Origin: a virus
Length of the DNA stretch: 39,947 bases
IMG/VR virus record: IMGVR_UViG_3300042402_003405
Span: 1 to 39,947 of that record
Reading direction: 5' to 3' (one strand)
Positions 640 to 38,292 of the stretch are shown in pieces. The notes beneath the pieces are model-generated. The model did no database searches. It saw nothing but the letters and a program-made list of their open reading frames with translations, and was not told where the DNA came from. A program made the position numbers and the translations under genes. Position 1 is the stretch's first letter. The number at the start of each line of letters is the position of its first letter.

Positions 640-3600
640 TTAGCGCACGTTGTAGTATTGCACGCCCTCGCGGATGTGCGCATCGCGGGTCGACGTACGG
701 AACCCGAACTCGTTGTTGCTGTCCTTCGTCTCGCGGATCCGGCGTTGCTGGTTGTCAGTCAGCTCCTTCATCTCGAGGCGCGCACCCTTGGGCTGACCCG
801 CGTTCCACTCGCGGATCTTGACCCACATGGCGCTCTTCTCCGCCGGCGTGGCCTGCACCCACTTGGTGATCAGCTTCGTGCGTTCCTCACGTTCCTGCTG
901 CTGTTGCTTCATGAGCGAGCCGCGCATCTCGCCAGTCTCGGCTTCGCGGCCCGGGGTGAAGCCCAACACCTTGAGCGCTGCCTCGCCCGGCGAGTAGGGC
1001 GACAGCGTCTCGCGCCCGGACGGCGTCTGCTTGCCCTTCTCGTACTTCTGGTAGGCCTGCATGCTGTCGGCCCATACCTTCAGGGGTACGAGCTTCTCCA
1101 TGGCCAGCGCCACGTCCCCTTCCCACAGCGCCTTCACACCGGCCGGGTACTCGGTCAGCATGCTGATCGGCGCGCCGGCAAACGCCTTGGCGGCGTAGGC
1201 CAGCAGGTCTTCGGGCTTGCGCGACTTCGGCTCGCCCATCGGGAAGATCATGCTCTCCAGACCGAAGCGACCCGATAGGTCCACCCCGAGGTACCGCGGC
1301 AAGCCCCGAGTGACGATCTGCCCACCAGCCACACCCAGCGACGACGCCGCCAGCTCACGTGTCCAGCGCTCGAAGTCGTCGTAACCAGAGTTGGTCATCC
1401 CCAGCAGGTTGGCCGTGATGAAGCCCACCTTGATCGCTTCGATCGGCAGTCCCAGCGTGCCGGCCAGCGTCGCGTGCGTGGCCATGATGCCAGCGAACGC
1501 CTTCATCGCTTCCTTGTCGCCCCTCAGAGCAGCAGCGGCCGTCTTCCCGAGCAGGAAGTAGGTCTTCTGCGCGTACTTCTTGAACTGCAGTGCCAGTCGA
1601 CCGAGGCCATGGTTGAAGATCGGCGCGGCGTTCCAGCTCGAGTAGTCGCCCATCGCGTCGTGCGTGATCTCCTGAGCGTAGGCCTTTGCCCGAGCGTGGT
1701 CCTTGGTCTTGGCGTACTCGAGGCGGTAGGCCGCGACCGCAGTGACCGTGCGGTTGATGCTCTCGATCGCCGTGCCCACCTGCCGGGCCATCAGGTCAGC
1801 TCGATCCAGCGCCCGGCCCACCAGCGGCGAGTTGGGCGTCGACATGCGCCCCAGCTCCATGCCGGCGTCGCGGGACAGCAGGCCGACGTCGTAGAGGTGC
1901 TCCAGCATGTCCGCGATGTGCTTGCCGTCGGGCAGCTTGCGCAGGCGGTCTTGGAACCTCGTCAGGTAATTGGTGAGGCCCTGATCGGTCTTGAACGCCT
2001 TGACCGTGTCGCTCAGGCCGGCACCTGCGGCGCTCATCGCCCCGATGTCCCGGTACGCCTGATTGAGCGCAGCCATCGTGCGGCCCACCTTGAAGCGCCC
2101 TGCCAGCAGGGGCATCGAGATGGTCCACGGCTCGGCCGCGTTGATCATGTGGAACGCCGGGCTGGCCAGCTTGTCGAGGAACGACAGCTGCAAGAGGCGG
2201 CTGCTCGCCTGATGCCACATGCCCGTCGGCTCCGGGTCGCCCTGCCGGTAGACGCGCTCCTTGAGCTCCTTGAGGATTTGCCCGCGGGGGTAAGTGCGCT
2301 CGGTCGCCTCGTAGCCGTAGTCGTTGTTGTAGTCCGTCATCGCCTTGAGGGTGGCGTCGATCTGGGGCTGGAAGCGAGCCCTAGAGAGATAGCCGGCACT
2401 CGAGGAGGCGTACTTGCCGGTGGTGCTGGTGATGTCCGTGCTGGCACCGGCGACAAACGTACGCGGCAGGCGGCGGCTCTGCGCCCGGGTGGATCCCATC
2501 GCAGCCAGTGACGCATTGCGGAGATGGTCGACCAGCTGCCGCTTGGCACCGGCGTCCAGCTCCTGAAACCCCTTGCGCTGCTGCAGAGAGTTGAGCGCTT
2601 GGTTGAACGCCTCACTCATGAACGACGAGTTGGCGCCGTGCGGTTCCCAGCGTCGGGGAGCGACGCCGTCCATGACCACGTCGTTGCGTGCCGACATTTC
2701 GGCATGGTGTTGGCGGGCGTGCACTTCGCGCTCGAAGAACGCGAGGTACTTGTCCTGCACCGTGACGCGGAACTTCTCGTCGGCGACACCCCACGCAGCG
2801 TCGGACGCCGTCAGCTTGTACTTCTCCGTGCCATCGGCAGTCGTGATCTCGACGAAGCGCTCGCCGGTGGCCGGGTCGGTGAAGACGCGCTGGGTCTTGA
2901 GCACCTTGAGCGTCTGGTTCTCAGCGAACGACTTGGCCTCAGCCTTGGTCTTGAACTCGAAGATGTTGCTGTTGTCGTCGGGCTTGCCTGCCGCGTCGAC
3001 ACGGGTCGCGTTACCCGGCGAGGTAATGGTGAAGCGGCCGGACACGACGTGGTCGCCTTCGCGCATCAGCGGCACGTAGGGGCCTTTGATCTTCGACATG
3101 GCCCGAGCGTCGCGGATCGCCTTGAACACGGCGTCCTTCTCGAGGATCGCCTTCTCAGCTGGGTCGAGCTTGTTCTCGAAGATCTTCATCGCCAGCGCGT
3201 CGTCCGGCACGCCGTCGTTGATCACGCGGACAATGTTCTTGATCAGGTCCTTCGAGATGTCGTTCTGCCGCTCCCTGAAATAGTCGTGCATCCGCTTGCG
3301 CATGGCGCGCAGGTCGGGCGGCAGCTCGTTGAGGCGGCGCTGCAGGTCAGCGTGCTGGGCGCGCCCCTGCCACAGGGCGACGCTCTCACCCTTGGGCACG
3401 GGGGCGTCGGCAAACACGCCGGCCATCGTCTCGTCGAGCAGGAAACGCGAGAAGTCGTTCCACGCCTCCGGCGACGTCTTGCGTTGCAGGGCAGCCATAT
3501 CCCCCACGAGCTGGCGATCGCCGCTGTTGAGGATGCGCTCCTTTTCAGTGGCTGCTTTGCCCAGCAGGTTGCTGAGGCGCGTGCCCAGATTGTCGGGGCC

Positions 3601-16606: not shown

Positions 16607-19600
16607 TCATGATGTCGGCACCCCAAGGAACTGCGCGAGACGCTGATTCGGGATGCGCTCGAGGCTGCCGCCGAACCGGGCATACAGCGGCGTTATCCAA
16701 CAGTGCGTGAAGCCGTAAGTGGTACGGAGAGAGCGCAGAGCATCGATGTAGTCGACTTTAATCTCTGACAAGTGACCACCGACACGCAGCTCGAGCGCCA
16801 GCTTGCTGATCGGCACCGGGAGTGTACCGTCTACGCCCCGGAAGAAGTTCATTTGCAAGAGGATGTCGTCTACCATCGCCTGGGCGGTTGGCTTGTTCTG
16901 ATACGTAAGCAGCGCCAGAAGGTCTATGTTCTCGTCGATGCCATCAACGCCCGGCGCGGATGTGAGCAGAGCATTGGCGTTGCTTTTCCGCCATCCGCTA
17001 TAGGTGCCCGTCCCCTTGTGAACGGCGTGCGAAGTGGCATTAAGTGTGTAGTTCTTGGCGTGGCACAGACGCGCAAGACCCTTGATTGAACGCTCGAATT
17101 GAGCTGCCGATCGGCCGTCCGCCCACTCAAGGTCAAGAAAGAGGCCGCCAACGGGCGAATTACCTCGTGCCCGAACGTCTGAAAGACGGCCCTGCCCGAG
17201 AATGATTACGTTCCTCACGGCCTTGAACGCGCCGCCAACAGCATCGTTGACAAAGATTGCGTTGGCGTTGGTGCGGAAATAGCGCCAGTGCCCGACAGCC
17301 CCCGTGTTGACGTTCACGTCGGTGGTGAGAACCGTATCGTTCTTCACCGTCCCGGCGCTGGCGTAGGTTCCCGAGAACGTCGTGCCGACGAGATCGAATG
17401 TCGTGGTGTTGATGACCGTTGCAACAGCAGTCGTGTTGGCCGCGCCAACGCCGACAACATTAGCGACCGTAACGGTATTGCCGGTAGTGATGCCGTGCGC
17501 CGCCGAGGTGGTGATGCGGACGAGACCTGCGCCGTTGTCCACGGCGTTGGTTACTGTGCTGGAGACATGCGCGGCCCAAGCGGAAACGTCGTAGCCGAAC
17601 TGTTCAGCAATATCGAGGAACCCCCAGCCGCCAGCGCGGTAGTTGCCATCGAATGTCGTCAACGTCGTGTCGTTTCGGGGGAGATACCCCAGCGTGTAGG
17701 CTCCCTTCACGAACATTTCGCCCATCGCGAGTTCATAGGTGTCGAACTCCGTGCGACCTGAAAAGCCGGTGGATGCCCCGGAGCCGTCAGTCAGCCCGAT
17801 GCCGCCCATCGTGTCGTTGCCTTTTTTGGCATATGCCGTGATCGTGCCGGGTACGTCACCAAGTCCGCGTGTGCCCCAAAAGAATTCATCGAGGGTGATA
17901 AGTGTTTGCTTTGTGTAAGCCGGATGACCCCAGGGTCTGATCGCCAACCGGGTGGCGGGGAAAGCGATAAAGCCAACCTCGAGCGGCGCGATAGTCTGAT
18001 CCTGCGTCCAGATCGCTCCGTTGCTCTCGAAAGAAGCAAAGTCGTACATCTCGGAGAGGACGACGCCCTCGACTGTGATGGTTCCGACGCCCGTATCCAT
18101 CTTGCGGACGACGACAGAAGAACCGTTGCCAGCTGAAGCAGCCGACATAAGAGTGACGGTGCGATTGGTGCTACCACTGTAGGCGTGGATATTTCGACCA
18201 AGGTCGAGCGCGATGGCTGTGTAGTCGTTGGAAGCCCACTCTGAGTCCGGGCGGTACAGGACGTCTCTCGTCCACGTTGTGCCATTCGATACGAAGTAAA
18301 CCCAGTCACCCTTGTTCGCCAAAGCAACACCGTTGACCGTGACGATACCAATGCCTGAATCGACTTTGCGGACAAACATATCATTGCCGGCATTGGAGGT
18401 TGCGGCAGTCAGCAGCGTCACAGTCTTGTTGGTCGCGCCCGCTGTTGCTTGCAGGTTCCGGCCAAGGTCGGCCACCACGGTGGTGTAAGCGTCAGCCGTG
18501 AAGGTGATCGCGTAACCGAGAACAATGTTGACGGAAGGAATATAATCCTGAGCTTTGTTCCAAGCCGCGCCGTCGCTGATGTAGACCACGTAGGCATACT
18601 GCTCGCTGAGAGCGTAGCCGTTGACCGTGACGCTGGCAGATCCTCTGTCGATCTTGCGAACGACCTGTATCGCGTCCGCTCCCGCCGTGACAGCAGACAT
18701 AAGTGTCACTGTCTTTGCCACCTCGCCAGAGGTTGCCTCGAGGGTTGTGCCCAGATCTCCTGCGACAGTCGTGTACGCATTAGCGGTCCAGGTGATCGCC
18801 GTTCTAACGCGGGTGTACTGTGTGACGTTTTCCTGCGTGTCGCTCATGGGCGGCTGGAGGATGCGGCCAATAGTGCCCGTCCAGTCGCCAGTATCGGTGC
18901 GCTCGAATGCGTTGAGGTTCGTGACTGGAATCTCAGGCTCGTCCTCGGTCTGGGCGTCCAACGTCTTGAGGGCCGTTTCAACAGCGTTATGGATGCTATC
19001 TGCCTGACTTTGGGTGACGCTCGGACCATCAAAGCCATAGGCAAGCTGAGCGACTTCATAAGTCCCGCTATTGCCGGCGCGGCCATATCGAAAAGTCCCG
19101 GTGGCAAGAGATGCCGCCGTGGCCAAGATAGGGGTGCTGGTCCCGTTTTTTTGAACAAAGCCGCCGCTGGTGCTGTCGATAACAACACCAGCCAGACCGC
19201 GTCCAGATGGAGACCCAACAACGACCTGCAACCTGGAAGAGCCCCACACACCCATGGTCGGCCCGCCGCCACGAAGACGGATAACTCCGGTACTCACGCC
19301 GATAGTTGCACCGCAAGCAGAGTAGACGCCGGGCAAGTCGGACTGCGAGTACACCATCGCCGTAATCGAAGGTGTGGCTCCCGCTGTCATCCCAAGCTGT
19401 GCAGGTGTTTTGCCAGTGTCGAGGTAGGCGGTGGAGCCGTCGCCCTGCCACCCATAGTACGCATTCTGGCTGGCGGTTCCGTATGCCGTCATCCGCTCGG
19501 TCGGGGTCTTCACATTGATGAGGTAGCCGTCGGTTCCCGGCGCGTTCAGGAACCGGATACCGCTCAACGTAGTCCACCAACCGTCAGCCTTGGCTTGTTG

Positions 19601-25414: not shown

Positions 25415-26515
25415 TTAGCCCGCCGTGACGATCGCCTGCGCCAGCGCCTGACCGTCGAGCACCTTGTAGCCGTAGACCTGCAGGCCACGGAGCAGGGTGC
25501 CGAAGGTGCGCTCGGAGCGGAGCGTCTCGACCTTGGTCATCTGCGACGCGAAGGTGAGCGCGTGCGGATGGCCGGCGTAGACGGCGAACTCGCCGGCAGC
25601 CAGACCGCCAGCCACGCCGTTCGGCAGGAGGTTGGACACATAGACCGTGAACCGGTCGATCATGCCCAGTCGGCCGTTGCGCAGCATGGTGACGCTGTCG
25701 CCCGACATGAACACCTGACGGAGCTCGGAGCGCTTGATCAGCGTGCCGACCCACGTCGGGATCAGGATCCAGCGGCCCATCTCCGGGATGTTCTGCTCGT
25801 CGAGCACCTGCCCGAGGCGGGTGATCACTTCGACGACGTCGACTTTGCCCGCCGGCGCGCTGTTGGCGACGACGGAGAGCGGCGAAGTCGTGACGCCGAG
25901 GTTGATGTTGCCCGAGATCTTGCCCGCGGTGGCGCCGCGGTTGTAGGTCGCGGTGGCCTGTCCGAGGATGCCGGCGAGCACGTCGGTGTCGACGGTGATC
26001 TTCATCTGCTGCGACGCGTCATCCGACCAGAGGGCCATCTGGTTGATGTCCGACTGGACCTTCATCACGTCGTCGAGGATCGTGTTGAAGTATTTGCCCT
26101 TGTCGATCAGCAGGGTGACGATCGCCGAACCCGGGCGCTGCACCGCCAGATCGCCACCGGCGAGGTAGTCGCTGATGGTGATGGTCGGGATGGTGCGGAT
26201 GTTGACGGTGTCGCCGAAGTTCTTGATCTCGCCTTCATAATCCGTGTTCGAGATCGCAGCCAGCACGGTGGCGGCGTAGAACTTCTCGATCAGCTTGCCC
26301 GACCAGATCTCCGGGATGAACGTACCCGAATAGGCCGGCGACGGCTGAGACGACCCCGAGGGGTAAATCGCCGGCGTGGTCATGGCGCCGGCAAGGCCGA
26401 ACGCGAAGGCGATGTTGGGATTGGACGCGCCGAGGTCGTGCCCGAGCGGGAAGTCGATACCGGCAGTCAGGACGCCAGCGGTTCCGGCGGCGCCAATGAG
26501 GTTCTTGATGTCCAC
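25415..26515 (-). CDS. Major capsid protein (HK97-like fold)
   Basis: Main head protein. A GTG start at 26515 has GGAG six bases before it; a second GTG at 26527 is possible but without a good site. About 366 aa. Typical capsid features: flexible N-arm followed by YSGTFIPEIWSGKLIEKFYA; KNFGDTVNIRTIPTITI (E-loop region); VQRPGSAIVTLLIDKGKYFN; a spine-helix-like segment with DDVMKVQSDINQMAL; WILIPTWVGTLIKRSELRQV and LNDEQNIPEMGR-type P-domain patterns; C-terminal LRSERTFGTLLRGLQVYGYKV. These patterns are seen in HK97-fold podovirus capsids near a scaffold and portal, as here. The scaffold gene ends 28 bases upstream. Confidence 0.85.
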   Translation of the reverse strand: MDIKNLIGAAGTAGVLTAGIDFPLGHDLGASNPNIAFAFGLAGAMTTPAIYPSGSSQPSPAYSGTFIPEIWSGKLIEKFYAATVLAAISNTDYEGEIKNFGDTVNIRTIPTITISDYLAGGDLAVQRPGSAIVTLLIDKGKYFNTILDDVMKVQSDINQMALWSDDASQQMKITVDTDVLAGILGQATATYNRGATAGKISGNINLGVTTSPLSVVANSAPAGKVDVVEVITRLGQVLDEQNIPEMGRWILIPTWVGTLIKRSELRQVFMSGDSVTMLRNGRLGMIDRFTVYVSNLLPNGVAGGLAAGEFAVYAGHPHALTFASQMTKVETLRSERTFGTLLRGLQVYGYKVLDGQALAQAIVTAG

Positions 26516-26543
26516 GATGATCTCCACGAGAAACAGGGTTCAG

Positions 26544-28520: not shown

Positions 28521-30632
28521 TTACCCAACTCCACCAGACACCCGCGTGGGCGTCAAGCTCGTGCGTGGCCCCATGTCCTTGTTCGGGGGGCCAGCCTGCG
28601 CTCCTTGGGCGGCAGCAGCGTTCTCGCCGACACCGCCATGCCCGGGAACACCCGTGGCCGCGGCGACTTCCTGTGCCATACGCTCTTGGCGGGTCAGATC
28701 CTCGGCGCTGGGGACGATCTGCTCGCCCGGCAGGCCCATCGTGTTGGCCACGGCGCGAAGCACTTCGGCGCGCCCTTTCGGTCCGACGATCTGCATGTCG
28801 ATCGGATTGGCCGTCGCCGCGAGGAATTCGAGCTGGCGAGCGCGGAGCGTCTCGCGCTGGAGCGCCACCGACACGCCCTTGACGACGACTTTCTCGGTGC
28901 CGTCGAGCACGTCGGTCGTGTCCGTCAGCAGGATCATATCCAGCAGGGCTTCAAGCGCCGGCGCGATCTGGTCCCGGTCGATGTTGGCACACACCGTCTG
29001 GAGCACCTTGGACGCATTACCCATGAGCATGGCAAGGCCCGACGCCGTGCGCCCGGCGCCGCCGGATGCCCCACCCTGAAGATACCTTGGAATGGCCGAG
29101 ACGTCGTCCGCCATGGCGAAGAACATCTGGAACGTCGCCATCAGCTCTTGGATGTTGCTGGCCGGCTGGAAGAACTCGATCGGCTTGTTGGCCGAAGACC
29201 CGGCACCCATCGGGTCGCTGGTCACGTGCCAGCGCTTCCACGGATAGATCTCCTCGCCGTTCTCCATGCCCGACAGGCGATCGTCGTTGACGACGACTTG
29301 GGGGCCGGACGACATCGCCATGTTGTTGTTGATGGCCCGAAGCGCCGCGTTGGCGGCCTCCTGCAGGTCTTCGAGCATATCCGGCAGGGCGTTACCTACA
29401 AGGGTACCGGGGACCTTCTCGAACGACGTGATGTAGTACGGCGCGCGCTTCTTGGGGCTGGGCGCCAGCTGCAGCTTGATGATGTAGGAGCCGATCAGCC
29501 ACGCCTCGACCGCATAGTCGCGCATGGGGTCCGGGATCAGGCGCTTGGGCATCCCGGCGTCGAGGAGCATCTGCCCCTGCACGCAGCCATGGAACTCGAG
29601 GCAGTCGATCAGCCCGGTCATGTTCCAGAACGGGTTTTCGCGGCTCTCCAGCACGGCGCGGGAACTGTCGGTACTGTCGGGCTGGTCGCTCAGCCCGTTG
29701 GGGTACTCGGTGAGCACCGCGCGCACAGCCTTGTGGTCATAGCCCGGCAGGTCGAGCGCGTCGTTCAGGTCGGCCCGGGTGAACCGGATGCGCTCGATCA
29801 CGTTTGCGTCACCGATAGTGGACGCCCCCGGCGACCACCAGATGTCGAACGGCGACACGCGGAGCCAGCAAAGCTTAGGCACCATGTCCGTGTAGGGCAC
29901 GCCGTTGCGCCACTCCACAATGTTCTGCATCTTCACTACCGGTCCCTTGAGGCAGGAAAATGGGAATATCGGTAGGTCGACGATGCACTCGGCCAGCGCG
30001 CCGTAGAAATTGCCCTCCTGCAGGAGGGTTTCGATCTTGTCTTCGGCTACTTTCACTTGGACTGTAGCCTTTTTCTTGGCTGCCTGACGAGCAGCTTCGA
30101 GCAGGCTGAGGGTGCGGTCGCGAACGTCGTCCACGCTGGGCTGCGCCCCCTCGGTCACCATCCCCATGACCTCGGACTGGACCTTCTGGATGATCGCCTG
30201 AATGACCCGCTCAGGGATCTCGGCGTCGGCCGGCGCCTCGAGCCCCCAAGGGCGATCGACCGACAGGTAGACATCCCGCAGGAGCGAGCTCGCGCCGCGG
30301 CACTTGACGGCGGTCAGGCGGGCATAGATCTGCGAGCCGCCGAACCGCTGGATCTCGCTGAGTTTCGCCGGGTCGTACTGCCCGTTGAACTGGCGCATCG
30401 CCGACAGCAGCCGCTCGGACCAACCCGAAGCGCCGTTGCGGTGCGTCGTCATGATCTCCCACTGGCGCCGGATCATCGCGGCGAGGCCCACGGCCTGCGT
30501 CGGGGTAACAGTCTGGCTCTGGGCCAGCTGCTCGCGCTGGCGCGTCTCGGCTACCTGCATCTGCGCAGGACCCATCACCTGCAAAGCACCGGCGCCGCCG
30601 GCGTTCTGAGGTGGGACGGGGATGGCCGCCAT
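28521..30632 (-). CDS. Portal protein (703 aa)
   Basis: Forms the DNA-translocating dodecameric vertex. Evidence is size and place (adjacent to terminase, upstream of the capsid and scaffold), plus portal-like features: LAAMIRRQWEIMTTHRNGAS and YARLTAVKCRGASSLLRDVY near the N-terminus, WLRVSPFDIWWSPGA, IRFTRADLNDALDLPGYDHK, ECIVDLPIFPFSCLKGP and the clip/stem LEFHGCVQGQMLLDAGM, and a C-terminal GGASGGAGRTASGLAMLMGN plus helical barrel. The start ATG at 30632 was chosen over TTG at 30635; the ribosome-binding site is weak (GAAG). It contains a dyad element at 29392-29407 inside the coding sequence. Confidence 0.85.
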   Translation of the reverse strand: MAAIPVPPQNAGGAGALQVMGPAQMQVAETRQREQLAQSQTVTPTQAVGLAAMIRRQWEIMTTHRNGASGWSERLLSAMRQFNGQYDPAKLSEIQRFGGSQIYARLTAVKCRGASSLLRDVYLSVDRPWGLEAPADAEIPERVIQAIIQKVQSEVMGMVTEGAQPSVDDVRDRTLSLLEAARQAAKKKATVQVKVAEDKIETLLQEGNFYGALAECIVDLPIFPFSCLKGPVVKMQNIVEWRNGVPYTDMVPKLCWLRVSPFDIWWSPGASTIGDANVIERIRFTRADLNDALDLPGYDHKAVRAVLTEYPNGLSDQPDSTDSSRAVLESRENPFWNMTGLIDCLEFHGCVQGQMLLDAGMPKRLIPDPMRDYAVEAWLIGSYIIKLQLAPSPKKRAPYYITSFEKVPGTLVGNALPDMLEDLQEAANAALRAINNNMAMSSGPQVVVNDDRLSGMENGEEIYPWKRWHVTSDPMGAGSSANKPIEFFQPASNIQELMATFQMFFAMADDVSAIPRYLQGGASGGAGRTASGLAMLMGNASKVLQTVCANIDRDQIAPALEALLDMILLTDTTDVLDGTEKVVVKGVSVALQRETLRARQLEFLAATANPIDMQIVGPKGRAEVLRAVANTMGLPGEQIVPSAEDLTRQERMAQEVAAATGVPGHGGVGENAAAAQGAQAGPPNKDMGPRTSLTPTRVSGGVG

Positions 30633-30722
30633 CAATTTTTCTTCGACATTGGGTGGGCCTCGACCATGAGAGGCGAAGTAGTGTACCCTCTAGTAATAGC
30701 GCTTTTTTGCAAGGTGAGCAAC
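30633..30722. promoter_or_regulatory. Divergent intergenic region between portal and terminase
   Basis: Ninety bases from which portal reads left and terminase reads right. On the minus strand TTGCTC at 30722-30717, a 17-base spacer and TATTAC at 30699-30694 form a weak sigma-70-like promoter that could drive the late leftward block. I find no convincing plus-strand promoter; terminase has an AAGGTGA Shine-Dalgarno. Confidence 0.4.
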
Positions 30723-35071: not shown

Positions 35072-35509
35072 TCACTGCACAGTCTCGGGCTTGGAGTTGA
35101 TGTCGTCGGGGTGGATGATGCTCGTAACCTTCGACACCTCCCCGCGGACGGGCACTCGAGCCAACGTCATGTGCTTGGTGGCCTCTTCAGCCGCCGCGAT
35201 GTTGGCAGCCACGATGACCTCGATGCCCTTGGTGAGCTGGTAGATGTTGTGGCGCCGGGCGTCTTCGTTGGGGCTCATTTGGTGGATGGAGTGGCCGGCA
35301 GCGACGGCAAGGGCGCGCAGGACGATCTGGGGCGACATACCGTTGATGGCCTTGAGCACGTTGCGCGTCACGTTGGCCAGCAGCACGTCTTCGGAGATCT
35401 TGCGGTCTTTTTCTTTTGCAGCTCCGCGCTCGTCATCCTGCGACGGGCTCACGCCCGCCTCGGATGTCTCACCACGGGCTGCTTTGTTGCGGGTGTTGTC
35501 GTTGCTCAT
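35072..35509 (-). CDS. Hypothetical protein (145 aa)
   Basis: MSNDNTRNKAARGETSEAGV opens a disordered, charged N-terminus (to about residue 45). Then comes a helical body (DVLLANVTRNVLKAINGMSP, VLRALAVAAGHSIHQM, YQLTKGIEVIVAANIAAAEE) and a basic C-terminus with HPDDINSKPETVQ. No family recognised. The ATG at 35509 overlaps the small membrane gene stop (ATGA); an apparent longer frame to 35608 would cross that gene. Confidence 0.65.
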   Translation of the reverse strand: MSNDNTRNKAARGETSEAGVSPSQDDERGAAKEKDRKISEDVLLANVTRNVLKAINGMSPQIVLRALAVAAGHSIHQMSPNEDARRHNIYQLTKGIEVIVAANIAAAEEATKHMTLARVPVRGEVSKVTSIIHPDDINSKPETVQ

Positions 35510-35628
35510 GACCAGAGCGTTTCCGCGATGCTGACGATGGCTACTGCCGCCATGACGGCAAGGGACAGGGACAGGACCATGCGGGTGGTCGGGTGGGCTT
35601 GGCGCCAAAAGCGGTAAAGCATGTCCAT
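35506..35628 (-). CDS. Small membrane protein (40 aa)
   Basis: MDMLYRFWRQAHPTTRMVLS followed by a single hydrophobic segment (LSLAVMAAVAIVSIAE) that can cross the inner membrane. AGGACA Shine-Dalgarno upstream of the ATG at 35628. A longer upstream frame start lacks a site. Coupled to the 145-aa gene by ATGA. Function unknown; such peptides occur in early phage operons and may be lysis, exclusion or anti-host factors. Confidence 0.55.
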   Translation of the reverse strand: MDMLYRFWRQAHPTTRMVLSLSLAVMAAVAIVSIAETLWS

Positions 35629-35659
35629 GAGATGTCCTACTCGTTGGGGTGGGTGGGGG

Positions 35660-35794
35660 TTAGCGCGGGAACCATGGCCAGAGCAGCAGACCCATGAGCG
35701 GCAGAACGCCGAGCAGAACAAATACCAGCACCGGGAACCAGAGCGGTGGCCGGGAGGCGGGCGGCGGCAGGAGTGGTGTGCGGGGTCGTTCCAT
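35660..35794 (-). CDS. Small proline-rich membrane peptide (44 aa)
   Basis: A short frame MERPRTPLLPPPASRPPLWF followed by a membrane segment (VLVFVLLGVLPLMGLLLW) and PWFPR. No good Shine-Dalgarno; the predicted promoter box at 35831-35803 would place the transcript start at about 35796, two bases before the ATG, so a leaderless message is possible. A longer overlapping frame (35637-35951) is a shadow. Moderate support only. Confidence 0.45.
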   Translation of the reverse strand: MERPRTPLLPPPASRPPLWFPVLVFVLLGVLPLMGLLLWPWFPR

Positions 35795-35802
35795 GGGGAA
35801 CT

Positions 35803-35831
35803 GTTTTACCTGAGGGACAAGGGGATGTCAA
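35803..35831 (-). promoter_or_regulatory. Leftward promoter with conserved CCTATTGACA box
   Basis: On the minus strand TTGACA (35831-35826), 17-base spacer, TAAAAC (35808-35803). The extension CCTATTGACA is shared with a second box at 35939-35934 and with an inverted repeat at 38066-38102. Probable early promoter of the leftward accessory block. Confidence 0.55.
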
Positions 35832-35841
35832 TAGGTAAGAC

Positions 35842-35875
35842 AATAAAAATGGCCCCAGTTTTTTAGGCTGGGGCC
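35842..35875 (-). terminator. Leftward Rho-independent terminator
   Basis: Stem GGCCCCAG / CTGGGGCC (35851-35858 and 35868-35875). On the minus strand it is followed by ATTTTTATTG. It lies between the two CCTATTGACA promoters, so a transcript from the right-hand one would stop after about 60 bases. Confidence 0.75.
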
Positions 35876-35910
35876 AAGTCAGGGAGGAAACGCCCAAGAC
35901 GGGCAGGGGA

Positions 35911-35939
35911 ATAGTGGGGGAAATGATGGGGCGGGTCAA
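35911..35939 (-). promoter_or_regulatory. Second leftward promoter box upstream of the terminator
   Basis: Minus strand TTGACC (35939-35934), 17-base spacer, CACTAT (35916-35911), with the same CCTATTGAC upstream extension as the 35831 box. The -10 is weak. Predicted start about 35904. Confidence 0.4.
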
Positions 35940-35989
35940 TAGGTAAAACACGTTTTTTCATTCTATATTTGCGAACCCGATAAGCACGA

Positions 35990-36032
35990 CCCCCACCCCC
36001 CTGCCCCCCTGTCCAGTTACCCGGGGGGGTAC
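35990..36032 (-). other. G-tract cluster (possible G-quadruplex) with dyad element
   Basis: On the minus strand 36009-35990 holds tracts of 6, 6 and 5 Gs separated by CA and T. The dyad element TTACC-N6-GGTAC (36017-36032) next to it carries a run of seven Gs on the plus strand. It sits in the gap between the leftward and rightward blocks. Confidence 0.6.
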
Positions 36033-36049
36033 CGGACGTTTAGCTATAG

Positions 36050-36326
36050 ATGAGCCGGATGATTGCCGGACATGGCCTAGCAAGGGGGCCTCAAAAAAGG
36101 AGCGGGATGCTCCACCTCCGATCTACGGGATCCCCCCGACAAGGGGATCGCAGCGGGCGAGCTGACGGCAAGCCCCTTAGACCTAAGACGGTCCCGCAAT
36201 CTAGTCAGGCGGGGGTTAGTCTGACGAGGGGGAAGTTCCCCCTGCAGGTTGAAGGCGAGGAACGCACTCCCTCTCTCAAGGGGGGAGTGTGCGTTTCACA
36301 AGCCTATCGGGTTCGATAGGTTTTTG
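36050..36326 (+). ncRNA. Probable structured RNA of unknown class
   Basis: About 280 bases without a convincing gene but with a chain of hairpins. GGAGC/GCTCC lies at 36099-36113. GATCCCC/GGGGATC (7 bp) lies at 36129-36149. GTCAG/CTGAC lies at 36204-36225. AGGGGGA/TCCCCCT (7 bp, loop AGT) lies at 36227-36243. AACGCACTCCC/GGGAGTGTGCGTT (2-base bulge) lies at 36261-36295. The series ends in a classic terminator at 36303-36325, so a plus-strand transcript is expected. A frame of 89 codons over the same span lacks a ribosome-binding site. I could not match it to RNase P, tmRNA, group I intron, HDV or hammerhead. Ends are approximate. Confidence 0.55.
36303..36325 (+). terminator. Rho-independent terminator
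   Basis: Stem CCTATCG / CGATAGG with loop GGTT, then TTTTT. It ends the structured region and precedes the 77-aa gene, so the two are separate transcription units unless there is read-through. Confidence 0.75.
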
Positions 36327-36331
36327 TAACG

Positions 36332-36347
36332 TAACCTATAAGGGTCA
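36332..36347. repeat. Dyad element TAACC-N6-GGTCA
   Basis: Located between the terminator and the ATG at 36351; the AAGGGT arm is its Shine-Dalgarno. Confidence 0.65.
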
Positions 36348-36350
36348 ATC

Positions 36351-36584
36351 ATGCCGACGTTCACTAGGGGCAAAACCTACGCGTCAACGGCGAAGCTGCC
36401 GCCGGTGCGCCGCGCGATGGAAAGCGGGCTGGCCTCCTACAACAATACGCCGCCGGCGCGCCAGCTTCTCCGCTGGGCCAAGCCGACCGGAGAGGTCAAG
36501 CTGGTCAAGGTCGGCCCGCGTAATCCGCCCACGCCCAAGATGGGCGACAAGCTGGCCGCACTGGCCGCCAAATTTAACCGCTAA
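36351..36584 (+). CDS. Small basic hypothetical protein (77 aa)
   Basis: First gene of the rightward block. MPTFTRGKTYASTAKLPPVR with LRWAKPTGEVKLVKVGPRNP and a helix DKLAALAAKFNR at the end. Rich in Lys/Arg/Pro; may bind nucleic acid. No family recognised. AAGGGT Shine-Dalgarno in a dyad element; its TAA stop begins the next dyad element. Confidence 0.7.
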   Translation: MPTFTRGKTYASTAKLPPVRRAMESGLASYNNTPPARQLLRWAKPTGEVKLVKVGPRNPPTPKMGDKLAALAAKFNR

Positions 36585-36597
36585 CCTACGGAGGTAA
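36582..36597. repeat. Dyad element TAACC-N6-GGTAA with embedded stop
   Basis: The first three bases are the TAA stop of the 77-aa gene. The right arm AGGTAA is followed by a 4-codon frame (ATG at 36605, then a TAG), perhaps a leader peptide or a remnant. Confidence 0.75.
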
Positions 36598-36800
36598 GAC
36601 ACGCATGTTTATACGATAGGCGCATAGGGGTTATAGCCCCCCGGAGCTGCAGGAGCGACGCCACAAGACCGCGCAAAGTAGAGGCGGCTTGACGGCGCGT
36701 TATTGCCTGTGAGCCAACATCAAACCCCCAATCTCTAGACCTTTTGGTCTGCAGCCCCAGCAACGGGGCTGCGTTCCTAAACATCTAGGAGGGTCCATAA
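36598..36800 (+). other. Noncoding structured spacer
   Basis: No gene of convincing length. Contains a 4-codon frame (36605-36619), a weak hairpin GGGG/CCCC near 36630, and two adjacent strong hairpins: AGACC/GGTCT (36737-36750, loop TTTT) and GCAGCCCC/GGGGCTGC (36751-36772, loop AGCAAC). The second is not followed by a U-run. Function unknown; could be a second small RNA or a leader of the next small gene. Confidence 0.5.
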
Positions 36801-36917
36801 ATGGTCAAGTCATCGTATCGCTACTGGTCTGACGCCATCACCGCCCGCAAGGTGGGGGGCATCTGGTTCACGCGCATCTGGCGTCTGCGCGTGAGCATCT
36901 GTGTCGCTCGCGCCTAG
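36801..36917 (+). CDS. Small aromatic/basic protein (38 aa)
   Basis: An ATG at 36801 with an excellent Shine-Dalgarno AGGAGGG (eight bases before). The protein starts MVKSSYRYWSDAITARKVGG, continues IWFTRIWRLRV and ends SICVARA, with four aromatic residues and eight basic ones. Ends with TAG, then the next gene starts 33 bases on. Too short to classify, but the ribosome-binding site and operon position support it. Confidence 0.65.
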   Translation: MVKSSYRYWSDAITARKVGGIWFTRIWRLRVSICVARA

Positions 36918-36927
36918 GTAAAACACT

Positions 36928-36943
36928 CAACCTTGAAAGGTAA
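36928..36943. repeat. Dyad element CAACC-N6-GGTAA
   Basis: Precedes the ATG at 36950 by six bases; AAAGGTAA is the ribosome-binding site of the 274-aa gene. Confidence 0.7.
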
Positions 36944-36949
36944 AACATC

Positions 36950-37774
36950 ATGGAAAACGAGAACACGAACATCGAACAGGCCGAAATGAGCAAGGCCGCG
37001 TTCGGTCGCATGGTCACGACGCTCGGCGAGCGCGAGGGCATGGGCACGAACTCACGGCCCGGTCTCTTCGTGCACTTCACCGAGGGCGCGGCCAAGGGCT
37101 ACATGGATGAGGACGACGTAGAGACGTACTACGGGCGGTACTGCAAGGCCATCGCGGCCAAGCAGAACATCGGCTATCAGCCGCAGTCCAGCGTCAAGCA
37201 GCAGGTGTCCAAGTTCAAGGCCGCCGTCAAACTCGGCAAGCTCGTGCACGTCAACGGGCAGGAGATCGTGAACATCGCGCTCGATGTCCAGAAGGAACAG
37301 CGCGCGGCCAACGAAGGCAAGCTGCCCATGTCGCCGCTCGATGGGCTGGTGAACGTCGCGCGTGCTCAGCTGTCGTTCCCTGACACGCCGCTCACGCGTG
37401 AGCAGATTGATCGCGTCATGCGTCCGACTGAGAAGGACGATCCGACTGAGGCGGACCGGCTCGACAAGGTGGCCACCGCCATCGAGAAGATCCGCACGGA
37501 CGACGACGCGACCGAGGATACGAAGACCGTGCTCGACGCCGTCATCACGCCCATCCTCGATCGCATCCGGGCGCTCGGCGGCACCACGGCGCAGCGTGCG
37601 GCGGTCGCACGTGAGCAGGAGAAGCTGGCCAAGCAGCGCGCCGGCCTTGCGAAGCTGATGGGCGTGCCGGACGTGACCGTTACGCCGGTTCCCGACCGTC
37701 TCGCGGCTTTCCTCGCGGCACGGCGTGCGGAGCTGGCTTCCAAGGTGGTCGAGATGACGGAAGGCGACCTCTAA
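36950..37774 (+). CDS. Hypothetical rightward-block protein (274 aa)
   Basis: Acidic N-terminus (ENENTNIEQAEMSKAAFGRM), a central region with YMDEDDVETYYGRYCKAIAA and QQVSKFKAAVKLGKLVHVNG (looks like a helical DNA-binding or structural fold), then charged helices with TEDTKTVLDAVITPILDRIR and a basic coiled-coil tail AAFLAARRAELASKVVEMTE. No catalytic motif. I do not recognise a family. Its TAA stop forms the start of a dyad element. Confidence 0.75.
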   Translation: MENENTNIEQAEMSKAAFGRMVTTLGEREGMGTNSRPGLFVHFTEGAAKGYMDEDDVETYYGRYCKAIAAKQNIGYQPQSSVKQQVSKFKAAVKLGKLVHVNGQEIVNIALDVQKEQRAANEGKLPMSPLDGLVNVARAQLSFPDTPLTREQIDRVMRPTEKDDPTEADRLDKVATAIEKIRTDDDATEDTKTVLDAVITPILDRIRALGGTTAQRAAVAREQEKLAKQRAGLAKLMGVPDVTVTPVPDRLAAFLAARRAELASKVVEMTEGDL

Positions 37775-37787
37775 CCTACGGAGGTAC
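37772..37787. repeat. Dyad element TAACC-N6-GGTAC with stop, no gene follows
   Basis: Same 12-base core as 36582 and 39190 but here no ATG is within 25 bases; the AT-rich noncoding gap starts. The TAA is the stop of the 274-aa gene. Confidence 0.7.
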
Positions 37788-37807
37788 GTCGAATAAGATA
37801 CTCGACA

Positions 37808-37860
37808 ATAAGATATGCGGCGGTGTGGTAGGTTGCTGCCACATCGCCCGCTTATCTTGT
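37808..37860 (+). ncRNA. Long imperfect hairpin RNA candidate
   Basis: Arms of about 24 bases pair around loop GTTG at 37832-37835: a 13-bp inner helix (37819-37831 with 37836-37848) including one G-U and one U-G pair, then a bulge and an outer helix down to 37808-37860. The wobble pairs fit plus-strand RNA but would be C-A mismatches on the other strand, pointing to a plus-strand transcript. Confidence 0.6.
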
Positions 37861-38065
37861 TAATACTGCAAGTAAGTGCCTAAGATGCAGCCGGCATGGG
37901 GTACCATAAAGAATCCCGGCAACTCTGCGCCTAACATTATTATCGCGCGCAACACCTTAATACTGGTAGTCGGCAGCTAAGGTTAAGCCCTGCAAGGCTC
38001 CTACTACTACTATCTATTCTAAAACCATTAATAAAGAAGAAGTACTTGCTGGGATTTTTTGGGTC

Positions 38066-38102
38066 TTTTCCTATTGTCATGCCCTGTATGTCAATAGGAA
38101 AA
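38066..38102. repeat. 15-bp inverted repeat with CCTATTGACA-like arms
   Basis: Arm 38066-38080 pairs with 38088-38102 with one mismatch and a 7-base spacer. The right arm contains TGTCAATAGG, the same word as the promoter boxes at 35826-35835 and 35934-35943. Likely operator. A plus-strand ATGTCA-17-TATATA promoter (38088-38116) could begin here. Confidence 0.65.
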
Positions 38103-38231
38103 CACGTAAATATATAAGTCTCCTTTTTAATTTAGAGCGATATTACGCCGCTTACCTACTAAACCACCAAACCATCGCATTCTTACACTCTGTCATCGGT
38201 CCTAAATCTTTGATTTAAGGGTGCCTCATAG

Positions 38232-38260
38232 TTGACATTAGCGCCCCAGAGCTGTATTTG
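38232..38260 (+). promoter_or_regulatory. Sigma-70-like promoter of the rightward block
   Basis: TTGACA (38232-38237), 17-base spacer, TATTTG (38255-38260). The -35 is perfect; the -10 is weak. It would start transcription around 38267, just before the dyad element and the 299-aa gene. Confidence 0.5.
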
Positions 38261-38270
38261 GTCCCAGAGT

Positions 38271-38286
38271 TGACCTAGCGAGGTAA
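38271..38286. repeat. Dyad element TGACC-N6-GGTAA
   Basis: Six bases before the ATG at 38293; GAGGTAA is the ribosome-binding site. Placed at the start of the transcript predicted from 38232. Confidence 0.7.
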
Positions 38287-38292
38287 AAACAC

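Follow-up and report, generated by a model that had tools for sequence, protein, structure and literature searches.

Why would a phage keep, between its two opposing gene blocks, a stretch packed with hairpins, and does such a stretch specify an RNA of its own? The window analysed here is an entire virus record, IMGVR_UViG_3300042402_003405 (39,947 bases), for which a preliminary description had proposed a possible new phage RNA at 36050-36326. The record comes from a tailed soil phage, with a portal (PHROG 332; minus strand, 28524-30635), a major head protein (PHROG 267; minus strand, 25415-26527) and an internal virion protein (PHROG 511), and the window also encodes a protein of 2213 residues that has a DarB-like match. 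By portal, the nearest cultured phage is Rhizobium phage RHph_TM27A (54% identity), and HMO-2011-type phages are among the more distant relatives. At the DNA level, 35400-37900 matched none of 50,697 annotated phages.

The two gene blocks do diverge from a gap, which a codon-usage gene model places at 35629-36350; on its left, the first gene of the leftward block begins near 35628, and on its right the early block, read rightward, begins at 36351. The early block opens with r1 (plus strand, 36351-36584), a 77-aa protein of unknown function that has no Pfam or PHROG match and one relative in the metagenomic locus L317 (E 7e-10). A micro-ORF (plus strand, 36801-36917) with a conserved RKVGGIxFxR..RxRxSF motif could be aligned in seven phages, RHph_TM27A (EVB29_027) among them, and in the window, L173/L317 and RHph_TM27A this RKVGGIxFxRxxRxRxSF frame directly precedes r2. 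The latter (plus strand, 36950-37774; 274 aa) is a conserved marker of the module, with relatives in L005, L022, L173/L317, L321 and L323. No early protein matched a Pfam or PHROG family and no N-like gene was recognised among them. Between r2 and r3 lies a 518-nt, partly AT-rich non-coding gap (plus strand, 37775-38292), a candidate replication origin with counterparts in L005, L173 and RHph_TM27A.

Judged by its motifs, the element is larger than 36050-36326, an extent that omits its 5' part; it runs from the promoter-like TTCTATATTT (plus strand, 35961-35970) up to the first early gene at 36351. TTCTATATTT, likely a -10 region, has its sole exact copy in the window here, and relatives share the motif or variants of it. 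A promoter scan scored no sigma-70 hexamer pair, and no -35 box was identified for TTCTATATTT; transcription would start near 35976. The tract CCCCCCTGTCCA follows 34 nt past the promoter-like element (plus strand, 36004-36015), again as a single exact copy in the window and conserved in relatives, and the sequence then reads as a 5' hairpin, GTCC-AG-TTACCC..GGGTA-CC-GGAC (plus strand, 36011-36037). Folding predicts a multibranched body at 36042-36259 (plus strand), hypervariable in sequence and closed by GATTGC (36061-36066) with GCAATC (36196-36201). Both stems singled out in the preliminary description can be read directly in the plus strand as 7-bp pairings, GATCCCC-CCGACAA-GGGGATC at 36129-36149 (36129-36135 with 36143-36149) and AGGGGGA-AGT-TCCCCCT at 36227-36243 (36227-36233 with 36237-36243). 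The hairpin chain described there is present, as is its textbook terminator: a further strong hairpin of about 14 bp, GAACGCACTCCC...GGGAGTGTGCGTTTC (plus strand, 36260-36296), is followed by the intrinsic terminator CCTATCG-GGTT-CGATAGG-TTTTT (plus strand, 36302-36325; stem 36302-36320; z -5.0). The anatomy thus resembles that of an intrinsic-terminator-ended sRNA, with a putative promoter (35961-35970), a structured RNA and a GC hairpin with a U run (36302-36325). A U-run terminator of this type is absent before the first gene in all other comparable leaders.

The earlier view that the stretch has no good gene and fully fits no known RNA class agrees with our searches. The one ATG frame of note (89 codons, 36050-36319) has no ribosome-binding site, family match or relative, and 35960-36350 gave no Rfam match at E<=10; a search for tRNA and tmRNA found none.

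The stretch 36040-36330 folds at -124.3 kcal/mol, compared with -109.3 +/- 5.3 for shuffled versions (z -2.84), and none of 200 shuffles folded as well. The opposite strand is nearly equal in foldability (z -2.73). Hence, the strand cannot be assigned from folding energy alone, and the presumed plus-strand assignment rests on the promoter-like element, the predicted terminator and the relatives. The most unusual part is the last 130 nt ahead of r1 (z -4.66), where the hairpin at 36260-36296 is the positional counterpart of a pre-gene hairpin in relatives. The 12 comparable leaders were chosen after their sequences had been seen, L111 being included as a likely version of the layout and L321 set apart for its different arrangement; in all 12 the pre-gene 130 nt forms a highly stable hairpin, whose arms are unrelated from leader to leader (z -2.9 to -7.6). 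L321 is without a strong pre-gene hairpin (z -1.3), and with this outlier added the Stouffer score over 13 leaders is -15.8. As controls, random 130-mers of the window had a mean z of -0.24, with 2% below -2.8, and 14 other intergenic regions of RHph_TM27A a mean of -1.0, three of them reaching -2.7 or lower. Strong hairpins are not unique to leaders, but in leaders they are the rule. Over the whole leader the z score is modest in some relatives (L005 -1.7, L279 -1.4). The forward strand exceeds the reverse relative to shuffles in most leaders, and in several the reverse is nearly as foldable. G-U near-pairs outnumber A-C near-pairs in long stems by 28 to 16, a trend (p 0.10), and a strand test based on GNRA loops showed no bias.

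Relatives were collected through portal, r2 and promoter-pattern searches, and about a dozen related phages have a common layout in which a strand-switch promoter is followed by a structured non-coding leader of 250-750 nt and then the early genes. The shared order is a promoter-like TCTATATTT, a C-rich stretch usually ending in CTGTCCA, usually a TTACC..GGTA(A) hairpin, 250-750 geneless nt, small early genes (often including the micro-ORF) and r2. It is present in L005, L022, L009, L173, L317, L189, L204, L323, L328 and RHph_TM27A, some of which are without one sequence motif. TTCTATATTT or a close variant occupies the equivalent position in L009, L173, L189, L204 and L207, and the variants TCTACATTT / ACATATTT / TCTATGTTT are found in L005, L022 and L323. 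The CCCCCCTGTCCA tract is kept in L009, L173, L189, L204, L207 and L279 and altered in L005, L022, L317 and L328, and a TTACC..GGTA-type hairpin occurs in 9 of 13 leaders (0.4 expected in shuffles). L279, in an alphaproteobacterial metagenome-assembled genome (MAG), has the promoter, the tract and the start of the leader in common with the phages, and was the one real match when genome contigs were scanned for the promoter pattern. In RHph_TM27A the counterpart (17522-18201) has nothing annotated in the record; early transcription is predicted to start shortly past GCTACATATTT, near 17620, toward EVB29_027.

Two broader pattern scans were mostly unproductive. For the 5' hairpin, apart from the near-identical contig L004, only unrelated coding matches were returned. 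Of the 114 stretches returned by a wide TTCTATATTT..CCTGTCCA scan, almost all were AT-rich coding sequence, and only L173, L189, the copies of L009 (L145, L199) and possibly L111 were kept as real.

Sequence conservation ends soon after the start of the leader. BLAST matches between leaders are confined to the first 60-90 nt, and the body of the window leader can be aligned to L004 (99.7%) and to no other relative; no leader-body relative of intermediate divergence was found in the collections searched. The closest comparison comes from one contig, IMGVR_UViG_3300031251_000020, which carries a version of the locus at each end (L316 and L317). DNA identity between the two is high in the micro-ORF (0.84), in r2 (0.82) and over the promoter and 5' hairpin (0.79); it falls to 0.44 and 0.43 within the leader and to 0.34 between the first genes. 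Aligned alone, the leader body and end reach 0.38 (shuffled 0.32 +/- 0.05), and the first genes differ in type, one being like r1 of the window and the other like that of L005. The contig is possibly a chimaera of two strains, although two close strains would still differ in this way, and the two versions suggest strain variation at exactly this locus. Across the set, structure is kept in place without sequence, a pattern that alignment-based RNA discovery misses.

Four relatives contain a further element. A boxA match of 11-12 of 12 positions occurs in L009, L279, L323 and L324 (RHph_TM27A), offset 139-167 nt from the leader start as defined here, and shuffled sequences yielded none. NusB/S10 bind to boxA, which has been described as both required and sufficient for the rRNA antitermination complex (PMC10250234). 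In the MAG with L279, the 16S leader of the MAG itself, read directly, contains CGCTCTTTCAAA, and the phage-like leader contains CGCTCTTTCACA; three MAGs gave no match to a boxA pattern whose GAA tail was fixed. The boxA region of L323 showed a weak match to a Caballeronia plasmid, which was rejected as a lead when no 16S start was found beside it. For the boxA-bearing relatives, the most economical interpretation is that antitermination of the host rRNA type may protect a long early RNA that is not translated. The window leader is shorter than these leaders, and boxA YGCTCTTWNACA was not found in it (best 8 of 12); hence, rRNA-type antitermination cannot be claimed for the window.

The gap and its surroundings hold two other observations. 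Within the leftward unit, RF00519 (alphaR8/MmgR) matches 35911-35836 on the minus strand with 51.8 bits (cut-off 41), the sole Rfam match both at gathering score and at E<=10. This sRNA has an intact UUUCCUCCCU, which is the core of the alphaR8/MmgR family (PMC12559287), together with a terminator of its own and the promoter-like pair TTGACC-17-CACTAT. Two annotated phage records also match RF00519: PP395640 scores 62.8 bits, and OP596612, at 32 bits, stays below the cut-off. By its family match, the sRNA at 35836-35911 is seemingly a host regulator carried by the phage; it supports a probable alphaproteobacterial host and is a separate lead. The TTACC-GGTAA hairpin was considered as a leader-specific feature and rejected, being spread over gene boundaries in these genomes. 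The palindrome TTACC-N5/6-GGTAA has 34 copies in the 60.9-kb RHph_TM27A genome (L324, L325), and several of those checked lie at gene boundaries and overlap Shine-Dalgarno sequences; in the window it occurs at 3011, 12229, 21621, 22816 and 28169. It is possibly an operator or a translational control hairpin.

We consider the segment to be a long untranslated, structured 5' leader of the rightward early operon that most likely acts in cis, with an attenuator added in this phage, and give this reading a probability of about 0.58. The promoter, 5' hairpin and strong pre-gene hairpin shared with relatives point to an early-operon leader and not to a defined stand-alone RNA. What holds of the proposed new phage RNA is that the segment is non-coding, structured and terminator-ended, with an equivalent at the same place in relatives. 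What does not hold is a single class with conserved stems, given that the stems are unconserved past the 5' ~60 nt and the terminator belongs to this phage only. Early transcription would begin near 35976 at the promoter common to the phage group, and the transcript would cross the C-rich stretch, the conserved 5' hairpin, the fast-evolving hairpin chain and then the very stable pre-gene hairpin. The 5' part, with boxA in some relatives, might condition the elongating host RNA polymerase, allowing a long RNA to be made that is not translated and yet escapes termination by Rho. The hairpin at the end of the leader may serve in processing or stability and define where the early mRNA begins, and the terminator of the window may be an attenuator, which would free an RNA of ~350 nt and let only some of the polymerases continue to the early genes. 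From this arrangement we infer that the segment is transcribed, acts in cis, is processed and is subject to attenuation. Several points count against the leader reading: early expression would be reduced by a terminator directly ahead of r1, one that relatives do not share; the window has neither a boxA nor an identified -35 box; and in several leaders the reverse strand folds nearly as well, with the G-U excess amounting to a trend.

A rival reading is a stand-alone, trans-acting phage RNA of ~350 nt with host or phage targets, the early genes then being reached by read-through or from another promoter. Such an RNA would have its own promoter-like element and textbook terminator, and the adjoining leftward unit, an independent sRNA with promoter and terminator, indicates that the phage carries sRNAs here. 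However, comparable leaders in relatives end without a U-run terminator of this kind, and no seed or core is conserved beyond the 5' ~60 nt. We regard a separate trans-acting RNA as less likely than a cis leader and on the whole unlikely, while the ~350-nt RNA released by the terminator could additionally act in trans. Slightly more doubtful is a signal at the DNA level, in which the strand-switch region would be a replication origin, a protein-binding array or a recombination hot spot with cruciform-forming repeats. Both strands fold alike in many leaders, the TTACC/GGTAA palindrome stands at many gene boundaries (34 in RHph_TM27A), and leader body and first gene look as if swapped as a block between the two versions on one contig, all of which would fit. 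A promoter upstream and a terminator downstream, boxA on the sense strand of four leaders and a hairpin that immediately precedes the first gene in all comparable leaders speak instead for RNA, and the AT-rich gap at 37775-38292 is the more usual origin candidate.

The contrast between L316 and L317, in which r2 (82%) and the micro-ORF (84%) are largely identical in DNA, the body is not (38%; shuffled 32 +/- 5%) and the first gene is replaced too, might also reflect an anti-defence or immunity RNA whose body diversifies under host defences or superinfecting relatives, somewhat like the leader-derived immunity RNA of P4. A single close pair shows this contrast, its members lying at opposite ends of the same metagenomic contig; no target was found, and an absence of sequence constraint would yield the same pattern; we consider it very improbable. 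A broader version is speculative and quite unlikely, if less so: one group of alphaproteobacterial soil phages would carry a hypervariable early RNA cassette, with promoter, 5' hairpin and downstream micro-ORF fixed, while the structured body and the first gene between them are exchanged as a whole among close relatives, the RNA being target or weapon in host defence or phage competition. That the hairpins arose by chance in unremarkable GC-rich intergenic DNA, or in a coding region that escaped recognition, is barely credible: an 89-codon open frame does span 36050-36319 and the leader-wide z of L005 (-1.7) and L279 (-1.4) is modest, yet the frame has neither family match nor relative, and each of the 12 comparable leaders has a significant pre-gene hairpin.

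Beyond the lambda and T7 models, there seems to be little description of long structured early leaders in tailed phages, and the papers searched gave none; the cultured RHph_TM27A has such a leader, unannotated. If the boxA-bearing relatives do borrow the host rRNA antitermination machinery, this is directly testable in Rhizobium. Large phage non-coding RNAs in Rfam, such as ROOL, GOLLD and HEARO, are likewise long, structured and unannotated in phages, but neither they nor any other family matched the region at E<=10, or nine loci from relatives at gathering scores. The early-operon leader of P4 yields an immunity RNA and is structured, with terminators before the early genes; the window leader is similar in its structure, its terminator before early genes and possibly its fast divergence, but its phage is not known to be temperate. 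Lambdoid nut sites (boxA and, beside it, a boxB hairpin with a GNRA-like pentaloop; lambda, P22) and the HK022 put RNA are early-operon leaders with hairpins close to the promoter. The CCGACAA loop (36136-36142) and GGCGC-GACAA-GCGCC in L005 recall what we take to be the GACAA loop of P22 boxB, as a lead only; unlike lambda and P22 nut, the window has no boxA beside this loop and no recognised N-like gene, and the hairpin position varies among relatives. In the rrn boxA leaders (NusB/NusE/SuhB), as here, a long untranslated structured RNA opens the transcription unit, and four relatives have a near-perfect boxA at a constant place, but the window leader is without boxA and the downstream RNA is neither rRNA nor conserved. 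In the untranslated early leader of T7, a strong hairpin with an RNase III site lies ahead of gene 0.3, the first early gene; a hairpin likewise precedes the first gene in 12 of 12 comparable leaders, although here its sequence is unrelated from phage to phage. What the sequences themselves show is the anatomy of the leader, its positional conservation around a body that is not conserved in sequence, the recurrent pre-gene hairpin and the boxA of four relatives.
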